A DNA stretch of 64,000 nucleotides from Jeotgalibaca arthritidis (GTDB lineage Bacteria > Bacillota > Bacilli > Lactobacillales > Aerococcaceae), in the NCBI RefSeq assembly GCF_011100465.1, contig NZ_CP049740.1:1976001-2040000 (forward strand). Reading direction: 5' to 3'. The notes under the pieces are model-generated. The model saw only the letters and a list, made by a program, of their open reading frames with translations. It was not told the origin of the DNA and ran no database searches. Of this stretch, positions 17,128 to 24,267 are shown piece by piece. Each line of letters begins with the position of its first letter. Within the stretch, counting starts at the first letter, position 1. The position numbers and the translations under genes were made by a program.

Positions 17128-19728
17128 ATGCAAGGAGATAAAATGACTCATGCCGTTCAAGAAGCGCTGGCAGAAGCACAGCAAGTGGCAATGACACGAA
17201 AGCACCAATTCATCGAAATTCCTCATCTATGGAAAGTACTGATTCAACCTAATGAGCTTGCGACTAATATTTATAGTGATTTAGGGTTAGCTATTGATCA
17301 GTTTGAAACGACAATCGATAAGGAATTGGATAAGATTTCTCAAGTATCAGGAGCAACTGTTCAATATGGGCAACAGTTTGGTCAAGGTTTATATCAATTG
17401 TTGACTGAGGCTAATCGTATCATGACAGATTTTCAGGATGAGTATTTATCAACGGATGTCTTGTTATTAGCACTGATGACTTTTTCAAATCACCCGTTAG
17501 TGGTGCATTTGAATCAGTATAATATTAATCAAGAGCGTCTAAAAGAAAAAATAGCGGAAATAAGGGGAGGCGATCGTGTGACATCACAAGACCAAGAAAA
17601 TAACTATCAAGCTTTGGAAAAATATGGGATTGACCTCGTTCAAGCAATGAAGAGTGGGAAGCATGATCCTGTTATTGGCCGAGATGAAGAGATTAGGGAT
17701 GTTATTCGGATCCTATCACGTAAAACCAAGAACAACCCAGTTTTGATTGGTGAACCAGGTGTTGGTAAAACAGCTATTGTGGAAGGGTTAGCGCAACGTA
17801 TCGTTCGAAAAGATGTACCGGATAACTTACGGGACAAAACGATTTTTTCACTCGATATGGGTGCGCTGATTGCGGGCGCAAAATATCGGGGCGAGTTTGA
17901 AGAACGCTTGAAAAGTGTGTTAAAAGAGGTCAAGAAGAGTGATGGTCGTATTATCTTATTTATTGATGAAATTCATACGATTATTGGTGCAGGTAAAACA
18001 GAAGGTAGCATGGATGCTGGAAATTTACTAAAACCAATGCTAGCTCGTGGCGAGCTACATTGTATTGGTGCGACAACCTTAGATGAATACCAACAAAACT
18101 TTGAAAAAGATAAGGCACTTGAGCGGAGATTCCAAAGAGTTATCGTCAATGAACCAACTGTTGAGGATACCATCACTATTTTAAGAGGATTGAAGGAACG
18201 GTTTGAAATCCACCACAGTGTAACCATTCACGACAATGCCTTAGTAGCCGCAGCAACTTTATCAAATCGCTATATCACAGAGCGCTTTTTGCCTGACAAG
18301 GCAATTGACTTGGTCGATGAGGCTTGTGCAACCATTAAAGTAGAAATGAACTCTATGCCAACCGAATTAGACCAAGTAACCAGACGCTTGATGCAGCTAG
18401 AAATTGAAGAGGCGGCTTTAAAACAAGAATCTGATGACCTGAGTTTGCAGCGTTTAGAGGTCATTCGAAATGACTTGGCCGATTACAGAGAAGAAGCGAA
18501 CCGTCTCAAGATGCAATGGGAGATTGAAAAGGAAGAGGCTGAAACCGTTCGCTCAAAACGTGAGGAACTGGAAACAGCTAGACGACAACTAGAGGATGCG
18601 GAAGCTGAGTATGATCTTGAAAAAGCAGCCGTATTAAGACACGGCACTATACCGCAACTTGAAAAAGAAGTAGCCAGTCTAGAAAAAAGCCATCAAGATG
18701 CTGCTAAAAAAGAGAGCAAGCTGGTACAAGAATCCGTTACCGAAAATGAAATCGCAGCTGTAGTCGAACGGTTAACAGCTATACCAGTGAAACGATTGGT
18801 TGAAGGAGAGAAAGAAAAGTTACTCTCTCTAGCTGATACCCTACATAAACGTGTGATTGGTCAAGATGAGGCTGTGGAGAGCGTCACTAATGCCGTTTTA
18901 CGTTCACGAGCTGGCTTACAATCGTCACAGAGACCGATTGGATCATTCTTATTCCTTGGACCAACAGGTGTTGGTAAAACAGAATTAGCCAAAGCATTAG
19001 CGGAAAATCTATTTGATTCAGAAGCCCATTTAGTGAGAATTGATATGAGTGAATATATGGAAAAATTCGCTGTTAGTCGTTTAGTTGGAGCACCTCCTGG
19101 CTATGTGGGTTATGAAGAAGGTGGCCAGCTAACAGAAGCAGTTCGAAGAAGTCCTTATACAATCGTTTTACTAGATGAAATTGAAAAAGCCCATCCTGAT
19201 GTCTTTAACATTCTTCTGCAAGTGATGGATGATGGTCGATTGACCGATTCGAAAGGGCGGACAGTTGATTTTAAAAATACTATTTTGATTATGACAAGTA
19301 ATTTAGGCTCGCCACTATTGTTAGATAATTTGGCAATGGATGGTAGTATTACGGATGAAGGACGAAAACAAGTATTTGATTTGTTAAAAGCGAGCTTTAA
19401 ACCAGAATTCCTAAACCGTATTGACGATACCATTTTGTTCTCGCCACTCACTCCAAATGATATTCATCTGATCGTGAATAAGATAATGGGCGACTTGCAA
19501 AATCGTCTGGCTGATAAACAAATCACCCTTCATGCGACAGAAGAACTCAGTCAATGGATTGCAGAAAATGCTTATGACCCTCATTATGGAGCACGTCCTT
19601 TAAGACGATTTATTACCAACCATATCGAAAATGAACTTGCTAAGGAGATTATAAAAGGGAACGTTAGTGAACATCAAACTGTTTCTTTAACCGTTGAAAA
19701 TGGGCAAGTCATTATTTCAAGTCAATAA
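17128..19728 (+). CDS. clpB: ATP-dependent chaperone ClpB
   Basis: Hexameric disaggregase that works with DnaK to rescue aggregated proteins after heat stress. The protein has a Clp N domain (about residues 1-145), first AAA+ module with [15 protein letters not shown], a long coiled-coil M domain (about 400-530) that distinguishes ClpB from ClpC and ClpA, and a second AAA+ module with [15 protein letters not shown] and [13 protein letters not shown]. An in-frame GTG 9 nt upstream overlaps the ribosome-binding site, so I start at the ATG giving [14 protein letters not shown] (866 residues). Control by CtsR is indicated by the operator over its -35 box. Confidence 0.96.
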
Positions 19729-19741
19729 AATAAATAAATTG

Positions 19742-19790
19742 AAGCGACAACAAAGTTATGAAATTTACTAGGTTGTCGCTTTATTTATTT
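19742..19790 (+). terminator. Intrinsic terminator after clpB
   Basis: AAGCGACAAC / GTTGTCGCTT arms with a 20-nt loop, followed by TTATTTATTTT. Confidence 0.75.
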
Positions 19791-19850
19791 TAAAATTTAA
19801 GATAAAATATAAAGTAGAACGAACGACAGAACATACAGGAGGTGAAAGAA

Positions 19851-20447
19851 ATGCTTTTTCTGGCTATTGGCTTCATTTGTTTAGTCATCATGCTCTTTAC
19901 CAACAAGTTTTATGTTTTTGGTGGTTTATCAATTATTAGTTTTTTTATTTACTTTATTTTGGTAGGAACCGGAACATGGGTAACCTTTTTACTCTTCTTA
20001 GCAGGTATATTCTTATTAATTTTAGAAATTTTTATTCCAGATTTTGGATTGATAGGGATTACTGGTGGGGTCTTGGTGGGCTTAGGTTATCTCTCCAATC
20101 AAAACGATTTATGGGGAAGTTTACTGGATTTAGGGTTAGCAATTGTGATAGCAGTTGTAACGGCTTATATTTTATTGAAGAAGGGTTATACCTTCTTGCC
20201 AGGCAAGAGTAGCTTAATATTAGGAACAGCTCTTGAAAAAAATAGAGGCTATTCAACCGCTAAAGATTATTCGCTATTTCTTGGTAAAACGGGAACAGCA
20301 TCAACCACGCTTCGTCCATCAGGAAAAGCTGACATTGATGGTCAAACGCTAGATGTGGTTAGCGATGGTGCGATTATTCGAGAAGGGTCGCGTGTTCAAG
20401 TCATTCATGTAGAAGGAATAAAAATTATTGTTAAGGAGCTGGTTTAA
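19851..20447 (+). CDS. NfeD-family membrane protein (short form)
   Basis: Short NfeD protein of 198 residues without the N-terminal ClpP-like protease domain. Three to four membrane segments cover about residues 1-120 ([60 protein letters not shown]). A C-terminal OB-like soluble domain follows with [29 protein letters not shown]. NfeD proteins are genomic and functional partners of flotillins and affect membrane-domain organisation. An in-frame GTG upstream is part of the AGGAGGTG ribosome-binding site, so the ATG was chosen. It lies 2 nt before floA. Confidence 0.92.
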
Positions 20448-20449
20448 TT

Positions 20450-21442
20450 ATGCAAGAAGGTATTCAAGGCAGTATCATCGGTGTCGTTATTATAGCTGTC
20501 ATCGTCATATTGATATTATCGTTATTTTTCCGTTTTGTACCGGTTGGATTATGGATTACGGCTTATTTTTCAGGAGTAAAGCTGAAAATCTCAGATTTAA
20601 TTGGAATGCGTTTGAGACGTGTAGCTCCTAGTATAGTTGTTCAACCTTTGATTAAAGCAACTAAAGCAGGGTTGATTATTGATACAAGCGAGCTTGAGGC
20701 TCATTACTTGGCAGGTGGAGATATCAACTTAGTTATTGATGCCTTAATCGCTGCGCAACGTGCGAACATTGATTTGGAGTTTGAGCAAGCTGCAGCTATT
20801 GATTTAGCAGGGCGTAATGTGTTTGAAGCCGTACAAGTATCGGTAAACCCTAAAGTTATTGAAACACCTATTATTGCTGGTGTAGCGATGAATGGTATTG
20901 AAGTAAAGGCAAAAGCTAAAGTAACTGTACGTGCAAATATCGAGCGACTTGTTGGTGGTGCGGGTGAAGAAACGATTATTGCCCGTGTTGGTGAAGGGAT
21001 TGTTACAACTGTAGGGTCTGCTAAAGCGCACTCACAAGTTTTAGAAAATCCTGATTCAATTTCACAAACGATTTTACGTAAAGGGTTGGACTCCGGAACA
21101 GCTTTCGAAATCCTATCGATTGATATTGCGGATGTTGATGTCGGTCGTAACGTTGGTGCGAAATTACAAGCAGAACAAGCTGAAGCTGATAAGCGTGTGG
21201 CACAAGCTAAGGCGGAAGAAAAACGATCATTGGCAGTTGCTGAAGAGCAAGAAATGATTGCAGAAGTTCAAAGACAGCGTGCTAAAGTTGTTGAAGCAGA
21301 GGCGCAAGTACCGTTAGCGATGGCTGAAGCACTTCGTTCAGGTAATCTAGGTGTGATGGATTATTATAAAATGAAAAATATTACAGCAGATACCGATATG
21401 AGAAATTCACTGTCAGGAAATAAAGATAGAAGTGATTCGTAA
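20450..21442 (+). CDS. floA: Flotillin-like protein FloA
   Basis: Scaffold protein of functional membrane microdomains in Firmicutes (YqfA in Bacillus). One N-terminal hydrophobic segment ([20 protein letters not shown]) is followed by the membrane-associated PHB/SPFH region. The C-terminal part is rich in A, E and K ([29 protein letters not shown]), the oligomerising repeat region. At 330 residues it is full length. It is embedded in a tight nfeD-floA-unknown-isomerase operon, and the last base of its stop codon is the first base of the next ATG. Confidence 0.96.
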
Positions 21443-22230
21443 TGTTCCTATTATGGCAACTATTTAACTTAGCGATTATTATCGTCATGGTCGGTTTATG
21501 GGGGTTTTTCATCAAAAACCTACTTAATGAAGTTCGCAAAGGGAAAAAACGAGCAGAAGACAATCAATGGCGGCAAGCTTCTGTTAAAAAACAGACACAA
21601 CAGCCATCTAATAGACAAATGAGAAATCAACAATTGCAAAGGGCGAGAAACGTTCAGTCAACAAGAAATAGAAATGAGCAACAACAATCGTCAAGAAGAA
21701 ATACAACGCCTATTCGTTTGAAAGAATTGCTAAAATATAAACCTGCTGATCTTTACCGCTTATTAAAAGATCACTTGCCAGACCAATATAAGCAAGAAAT
21801 TCAAGCTATCTTTAATTCACCAAATTCAGAGGTTGAATTGATTAAGTTTATTAGAAGACCTGATGTTTGGCCAATGGTTCAAAAAACCTTATCAGAAATA
21901 GCTAGTGGTCGTCATGAAAAGTCATCTATGATGGCAGATTACAAGACAACAAATGAAGCGCCTATTCTTTCAGAAACAGAGGAAGATGAATTAGATTGGC
22001 AATCGTTGGATCAAGAGAGTGATGTGTTCCAAGAAGAGTACAATCAATACGCCAAAGAATTTGACATTATAGTGGATAAAATGTTACAAACTAGCGAAGG
22101 ACTAGCAGTGGAACCATCACTCAATAGGAAGACACATTCAAGTCATTCTAAAAAAGACCGACAACGTCAAAAAGAATGGCTAAGGGAAGCAGTCATCGCG
22201 CAAACGATTTTAGAACGACCAGATTTTTAA
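21442..22230 (+). CDS. Unrecognised single-pass membrane protein coupled to floA
   Basis: I do not recognise this 262-residue protein. It begins with one hydrophobic helix (LLWQLFNLAIIIVMVGLWGFFI) followed by basic residues, which predicts a cytoplasmic C-terminal part. Residues about 45-85 are rich in Q, N and R and probably disordered. A compact segment (about 88-150) reads RLKELLKYKPADLYRLLKDHLPDQYKQEIQ in pieces and ends with RRPDVWPMVQKTL. An acidic stretch (about 170-200) and a short basic C-terminus follow. The ATG overlaps the floA stop, implying translational coupling. In Bacillus this position holds the small YqfB, which this does not resemble. A role with flotillin membrane domains is inferred only from context. 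Confidence 0.75.
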   Translation: MFLLWQLFNLAIIIVMVGLWGFFIKNLLNEVRKGKKRAEDNQWRQASVKKQTQQPSNRQMRNQQLQRARNVQSTRNRNEQQQSSRRNTTPIRLKELLKYKPADLYRLLKDHLPDQYKQEIQAIFNSPNSEVELIKFIRRPDVWPMVQKTLSEIASGRHEKSSMMADYKTTNEAPILSETEEDELDWQSLDQESDVFQEEYNQYAKEFDIIVDKMLQTSEGLAVEPSLNRKTHSSHSKKDRQRQKEWLREAVIAQTILERPDF

Positions 22231-22247
22231 TGGGAAAGAGGAATAAC

Positions 22248-23003
22248 ATGTCACGTCTTTTAGGTGTCAATACGCTTGTTTTTAATGAAGAGTTAAGTGA
22301 AGGAACGGTTCAACAATTAACGTATATTAAGACGATTAAGGAGCTAGGCTTTTCTTTTGTTGAAATTCGACGAGAGTTTCTTCGGAATCTTACAGAAGAA
22401 TTGTTAGAGACAAAGACAGAAGCAGAACGTTTCCAGATGCCTTTGTATTATTCAGTCCCTTCCGTTTTATTTGAATCAAGAGAAATTAATCCTGCTTTAA
22501 CGACTTATTTTGAAGAAGCAAGAATGATGGGTGCTATCCAAGTGAAAGTCACACTGGGTGATTACCACGACTTACAAGAAAATCATGTAGAGAGCCTCGC
22601 ACATTTGTTCAAGCAGTATCCTGATATTCAATTAAGTATTGAAAATGATCAGTCTATTGAGGGTGGTTCGGCAAAAGCTTTGTCTGATTTTATCTTTGTA
22701 GCTCATTCCCATCAATTACCGATTTAATTGACCTTTGACACAGGAAATGTTCTATACATTCAAGAATTAGCCGAAGAAGCAGCTGTAGTTCTAAAGGACT
22801 ATGTCAACTATATTCATATTAAAAATGTGAAGCAGACACCAGACCATCAGTTTGAACTTGTTTTAATTGGGACAGGAGACATTGACATACAAGATGTATT
22901 GGCTGTTTTTCCAGAAAATATTCCAGCAGCAATTGAGTACCCATGTGGTAATAAAGAAACAGCAATTGATGTTTTAAAAGCTGAAAAAGTACAACTAATC
23001 TAG
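22248..23003 (+). pseudogene. Sugar phosphate isomerase/epimerase (AP endonuclease 2-like) interrupted by an in-frame TAA
   Basis: The frame begins with MSRLLGVNTLVFNEEL behind an AAAGAGG site and would give 251 residues, but codon 160 is TAA (22725-22727). The same frame continues with LTFDTGNVLYIQ, INYIHIKN-like and GTGDIDIQ segments to a proper stop. The TIM-barrel features (EIRREF, SIENDQS, TFDTGN, YIHIKN) are those of the xylose isomerase-like/IolE-type family. Catalytic metal-binding residues are therefore split between two pieces. It is the last gene of the floA operon. The sugar substrate is unknown. A sequencing error would restore a full gene. Confidence 0.82.
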
Positions 23004-23008
23004 TAAAA

Positions 23009-23060
23009 ACGAGAGTAAGTGAATCGTCTCTCAGACGGTGAGCTTACTCTCATTTTTATT
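23009..23060 (+). terminator. Intrinsic terminator after the isomerase pseudogene
   Basis: GAGAGTAAG / CTTACTCTC outer stem with an inner CGTCT-CTC-AGACG hairpin, then ATTTTTATTT. Confidence 0.8.
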
Positions 23061-23087
23061 TCAAGACGAAAGTAACTGTGATATACT
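23059..23087 (+). promoter_or_regulatory. Promoter for tgt
   Basis: TTTCAA and TATACT with 17-nt spacing, with TGA directly before the -10 box (extended -10). Confidence 0.55.
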
Positions 23088-23100
23088 GTGTAATGATTAG

Positions 23101-24267
<1,167 letters not shown>

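Follow-up and report, generated by a model that had tools for sequence, protein, structure and literature searches.

To our knowledge, what bacterial flotillins bind, and how they bind it, is still largely open. The question arises in a concrete form in Jeotgalibaca arthritidis, where the flotillin gene floA is directly followed by an ORF for an unrecognised membrane protein: is this protein a peculiarity of its lineage, or a regular companion of FloA? We analysed the locus within a stretch of 64,000 nucleotides (contig NZ_CP049740.1, positions 1,976,001 to 2,040,000), hereafter the window, to whose first letter all coordinates refer. On the + strand, nfeD (19851..20447) codes for a membrane domain and a C-terminal partner-binding domain (Pfam PF24961 and PF01957, both over cut-off); its start is read as the ATG at 19851, preceded by an AGGAGG-type ribosome site, while the mechanical ORF begins with a GTG at 19842. 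Next comes floA (20450..21442, +), coding for a flotillin-like protein of 330 aa (PF12127, E 1.7e-159; NF010186, E 2.8e-163), and then the ORF of interest (21442..22230, +), whose 262 aa product we call here the FloA-linked tether protein, on the grounds of its reading frame, its orthologues, and the position and tail of its counterparts in other genomes. The two genes meet in the sequence TAATG, where the TAA of floA (21440-21442) and the ATG of the tether gene (21442-21444) have one base in common; the overlap of start and stop codons described in an earlier note on this DNA is, thus, borne out. A scan for promoters and terminators at 19600-23200 gave no more than shuffled sequences did. The next gene (22176-23003), presumably a TIM-barrel sugar isomerase from its look, contains an in-frame stop at 22725-22727, just before ...LTFDTGN..., where its orthologues in three loci (L011-L013) read through; this interrupted gene is either a pseudogene or the result of a sequencing error.

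The predicted tether protein begins with an N-terminal membrane helix (about residues 7-24; 21460..21513, +), indicated by hydropathy, by the structure model and by the charge bias of its family, and followed by basic residues. Downstream on the same strand lie a poorly conserved linker rich in Q, N and R (about residues 36-90; 21547..21711), a helical middle domain delimited by orthologues, model and invariant columns (residues 93-154; 21718..21903), an acidic stretch seen in the sequence (about residues 170-215; 21949..22086), and a C-terminal motif region, a divergent copy supported by alignments, a profile and a helix in the model (residues 239-262; 22156..22227). In the model (mean pLDDT 63.9, pTM 0.29), the strongly hydrophobic N-terminus lies in a helix spanning residues 2-51, with pLDDT about 90 over residues 1-30; the linker stays at about 40-55 for most of its length and has low identity among orthologues; the middle domain reaches about 83-87 over residues 101-150; and further helices are predicted at 186-219 and, with pLDDT about 70, in the tail at 236-258. 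Sequence and model together, thus, agree with the order of helix, Q/N/R-rich segment, compact middle and acidic stretch given in the earlier note, from which the C-terminal helix was absent.

A search of 60 relatives with the whole protein matched only 8 genomes, namely that of the window, five congeners and two of a second genus, whereas floA is present in 43 of the same 60; by that search alone, the description of the protein as lineage-specific looked right. The predicted ORF is more than a chance one, since orthologues lie directly behind floA in the five congeneric genomes, and weak ones in the two genomes of the other genus. Identity of the window protein to six orthologues ranges from 54/65 down to 15/65 in the middle domain, from 15/24 down to 10/24 in the tail, and from 16/55 (closest orthologue) down to 3/55 in the linker. 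In Trichococcus ilyis (L094), whose FloA is 85% identical to that of the window, the next ORF resembles the two second-genus orthologues, being 217 aa long as well, with a nearly identical end and the same invariant middle-domain columns. Among the genomes searched, the predicted middle domain is found only in the window genus, Trichococcus and the two genomes of one further genus. In another genome of the window genus (G003, L015), the floA-linked gene is frameshifted in the linker, among runs of A, so that its halves lie in different frames.

Comparison with known families and folds returned little for the window protein: no Pfam or NCBIfam family over cut-off, no significant sequence match of the orthologue profile to solved structures (best E 0.1), and no significant Foldseek match of the whole model against the PDB (best E 2.4), the middle domain being without a fold match; some rows pointing to a PABC/MLLE fold were weak and were set aside. 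FloA itself had no match at E<=0.01 among the sequences of solved structures. DUF4834 (PF16118) does match residues 7-83 (E 0.0039), with 18.5 bits for a curated cut-off of 27.8; we rejected membership in this family, as the match spans only the anchor and the low-complexity linker and misses the cut-off. Indeed, 11 of 14 control genomes contain DUF4834 matches at E<=1 (over cut-off in 1), so that weak matches of this kind mean little; as a possible Bacteroidales counterpart, DUF4834 had no match in two plasmid-labelled records.

The ORFs lying 3' of floA in the loci that we fetched usually share one plan: an N-terminal hydrophobic helix, a low-order middle rich in K, R and Q, and a C-terminal motif whose consensus is roughly L-x-x-[GA]-[IV]-[IV]-x-[SAK]-E-[IV]-L-x-x-P-[RK]-[AS]-x-R, as in LRRAIIMKEILDKPVSLK, VVQGFIWSEILGPPRSKKPH and LKKAFIYSEIFGKPKGLQ. 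Across 191 floA loci, a set that contains the training set of the profile, the best ORF scored at least 10 bits in 172 and lower in 15, the remaining 4 having no candidate. In these 172 members (fewer at the ends of the motif), L, I or V stands at column 6, G or A at 9, mostly I or V at 10 and 11, a large hydrophobic residue at 12, S, A or K at 13, E (92%) at 14, I or V (96%) at 15, L (85%) at 16, P (98%) at 19, R or K at 20, A or S at 21 and R or K at 23. Outside the tail, full-length alignment is poor: 17 members of Bacillaceae type are 17-31% identical to the first one, except for one at 71%, while their tails align. As to position, 35 of the 172 overlap floA, 128 begin 1-60 bases after it and 9 are farther off; lengths run from 52 to 351 residues, with a median of 167. 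A clear N-terminal helix (hydropathy >=1.4) was found in 157 of the 172 and is, thus, usual without being universal. In short forms of 52 (L267), 53 (L164, Thermoactinomyces) and 59 residues (L150, Laceyella), the tail is retained, but an anchor is barely present or absent; what persists in the family is, thus, the tail motif, and the predicted anchor can be lost. A model of the member from Bacillus sinesaloumensis (AlphaFold; mean pLDDT 66.4, pTM 0.21) has an anchor helix at residues 4-34 with a break at 15, then little structure, and a tail helix at 131-144 with pLDDT about 80. Eight further members searched against each of Pfam and NCBIfam (seven of the eight common to both) matched no family over cut-off; NF047418 (AuxB), with the lowest E there (3.4e-5, on the L029 member), reached 23 bits for a cut-off of 300.

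How tightly is this motif tied to floA? A test profile of 25 columns was built from 73 ORFs of genomes separate from those of 80 named floA loci (a few may share species), and was run against all 2961 ORFs of at least 40 aa on both strands of these 80 loci, which cover Bacillus, Paenibacillus, Staphylococcus, Macrococcus, Clostridia, Tissierellia, Halanaerobium, Aerococcus and Trichococcus. In 78 of the 80, the match was an ORF whose start lies at -31 to +99 bases relative to the floA stop; the lowest of these 78 scores was 7.6 bits (L169), and the best of any other ORF was 6.8 bits. Two loci were missed: L157 stops about 250 bases past the FloA match, and in L095 (Aerococcus) the tail has degenerated too far (0.6 bits).

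Genome-wide counts point the same way. Of 299 genomes drawn from the phylum, 205 have floA, and in these sets, which were compiled by hand, the tail profile A3 matched at E<=0.01 in 165 of the 205 floA-positive genomes vs. 1 of the 94 floA-negative ones (174 vs. 12 at E<=0.1); A3 includes rows from 29 of the 299 genomes, all within the 165, and 136 of 176 remain when they are left out, while the named rows of A3 may be near kin of further genomes. The sole floA-negative match at E<=0.01 (G273, L214) looks like chance, the neighbouring ORFs showing neither floA nor a tail protein. By hand count, the 60 relatives gave 31 of 43 floA-positive and 0 of 17 floA-negative genomes at E<=0.01, a count that is no independent test, as many A3 rows were drawn from these relatives. 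The association with floA proposed in the earlier note is, thus, strongly supported, and well beyond Lactobacillales. As for the exceptions, 40 of the 205 floA-positive genomes, that of the window included, have no motif match at E<=0.01, and 31, again with the window genome, have none at E<=0.1. We fetched the loci of 15 of these 31 (L252-L266); in one (L265), the contig stops inside the next ORF, and in all 14 complete ones, a degraded tail can be made out by eye (e.g., LYAGFVWSEIWQEPLAHRK and LLLAHVLPRPDF), a reading that the profile does not bear out in all of them, several scoring near zero and three having another ORF that scores better. In one genome with two floA genes (G145; L201, L224), a motif protein lies behind each of them. 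A weak look-alike, KEILDKPxxLRD, recurs in the profile search inside long ORFs (L219, L220, L229 and others) that contain FMLKEIFEQPRALRDT and that we take to be GlmS from their look, and one other second match lies in what is presumably an ABC-transporter-like ATPase; the second matches that we inspected were, thus, taken as chance rather than as the motif occurring elsewhere in these genomes.

The motif also occurs outside the phylum. One floA-linked motif locus (L139) comes from a record titled candidate division KSB1 (genome G356). Among 79 genomes from the phylum of G356, floA was found over cut-off in 6; sequence behind floA was available in 5 of the 6, and all 5 have a tail protein there, four with an EILG[PK]C[KR]A variant and two starting about 500-590 bases after floA. 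In two Bacteroidales records, one from Parabacteroides and one from Bacteroides (L240, L241), nfeD and floA are present with no tail protein near, and a nucleoside phosphorylase follows floA; FloA can, therefore, do without a neighbouring partner. The order of the unit in these two Bacteroidales records is TPR protein, nfeD, floA. A stretch from Staphylococcus simulans, searched by blastn against plasmids, gave no match.

Where does the window protein stand in this family? Its tail, AVIAQTILERPDF, keeps the P and has the usual E replaced, and alone it reaches only 11.8 bits with the tail profile (E 0.74 in its own genome). One could hence argue that the resemblance of the tail is due to chance and that this membrane protein is lineage-specific and unrelated to the others, all the more since the E is replaced in five of the six genomes of the window genus (by T, V, M, I and T); the remaining one, G003, retains the E, but it lacks the P and its frame is broken upstream. 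We consider this very improbable: orthologues with the same place and the same middle domain bridge the gap, G004 of the same genus scoring E 4.6e-4 and G009 and G028 of the second genus about 7e-7 (G004 and G028 being themselves rows of the profile), and nothing outside the floA-adjacent ORFs exceeded 6.8 bits among the 2961 ORFs of the 80 loci. Because of its position, its plan and its well-scoring orthologues, the window protein is most plausibly a divergent copy within a tail-motif family, so far unrecognised, that extends across the phylum and includes the ORFs in the place of yqfB. The term lineage-specific, thus, fits the middle domain, in the genomes searched, but not the entire protein, whose plan and motif recur behind floA throughout the phylum.

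As to what the protein may do, we regard it as rather probable that it is a membrane tether belonging to the nfeD-floA unit as its third member, and that its C-terminal peptide docks on FloA; we infer FloA as the docking partner. This reading is founded on the tie to floA, on the second copy accompanying a second floA, and on the persistence of the tail where the anchor is missing. The N-terminal helix would sit in the membrane and the rest of the chain in the cytoplasm: in the members with a clear anchor, the mean charge of the 20 residues after it is +3.45, and it exceeds the charge before the anchor in 144 of 157, and the tail is, therefore, probably cytoplasmic. The bulk of FloA is cytoplasmic as well. 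The C-terminal helix would dock on the cytoplasmic portion of FloA oligomers, and the tether would thereby connect FloA assemblies with the membrane or with further membrane proteins. The variable middle would act as a spacer; in some lineages, that of the window included, it would have gained an additional domain, perhaps for binding a client.

The partner could also be another one. The motif might dock on NfeD, or on another protein that always accompanies floA, such as a membrane protease, FloA being a mere neighbour in the complex; nfeD does lie ahead of floA in the window and in four annotated loci, and the computed results do not separate NfeD from FloA as the partner. Co-variation between motif and FloA in 172 pairs named no contact, because FloA hardly varies (the effective number of sequences was only 6.6). 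However, NfeD varies greatly in length, from 99 aa in Listeria innocua to 470 aa in Paenibacillus cellulosilyticus, with the motif present in both loci, while FloA is highly conserved; this argues, weakly, against NfeD, and we hold such a dock to be unlikely. Less likely again, and rather improbable in our eyes, is that the C-terminal helix, whose end is basic and rich in proline, binds no protein and serves as an in-plane membrane anchor or localisation tag. The column frequencies, which show a short helix with hydrophobic positions and basic residues after it, would suit such an anchor, but an E conserved at 92%, a P at 98% and the tie to floA exceed, in our judgement, what a lipid-binding helix needs.

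Taken further, the docking of a tethered peptide on FloA would give this flotillin a widespread dedicated ligand, present in most floA-positive Bacillota and in some genomes beyond; the unit would be NfeD-FloA-tether, and each lineage would exchange the cargo that sits between anchor and peptide so as to connect its own clients to FloA assemblies. We put this broader view forward tentatively, as falling slightly short of probable. A motif of 20 residues travelling with floA across a phylum would offer a small, mutable handle on flotillin binding. It also unites into one family, missed by whole-protein search, many separate "hypothetical proteins", an annotation borne, for example, by the motif-containing WP_003765296 of Listeria innocua and WP_110046433 of Paenibacillus cellulosilyticus, the latter encoded before yqfC and yqfD.

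The nearest comparison is YqfB of B. subtilis, the product of the third gene of yqeZ-yqfA(floA)-yqfB, which has the same place behind floA as the window protein. The available sections of the literature describe yqeZ-yqfA-yqfB of B. subtilis as a single sigma-W operon that ends in a terminator behind yqfB (PMC3498285), link induction of the operon to sublancin resistance (PMC8144471), and list YqfB as a conserved protein of unknown function (PMC12563154); those of PMC4409396 report that a floA deletion is more sensitive to sublancin and make no mention of YqfB, and the main text on S. aureus FloA-NfeD, in the part available (PMC11222466), names neither YqfB nor a third gene. In the texts available on YqfB, on FloA and flotillins, on the NfeD neighbourhood and on the operon, with subscription papers mostly outside the scope, we found no description of the motif or of the family. 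The earlier note took YqfB for a different small protein, and this was not supported: the ORFs in that place in Bacillaceae and Paenibacillaceae (B. subtilis YqfB itself not being among them) have the same plan of N-terminal helix, low-order linker and C-terminal motif, and in two loci (L077 and L243), the motif ORF lies directly before yqfC. Compared with these ORFs, the window protein is longer and has a helical domain in addition, and its motif is degenerate. A second comparison comes from FtsZ, in which a variable disordered linker ends in a short conserved docking peptide. The combination of a variable spacer and a conserved C-terminal peptide would be alike in the way it works, and no homology is claimed; here, unlike in FtsZ, the spacer would start from a membrane anchor, with a flotillin as the proposed dock.
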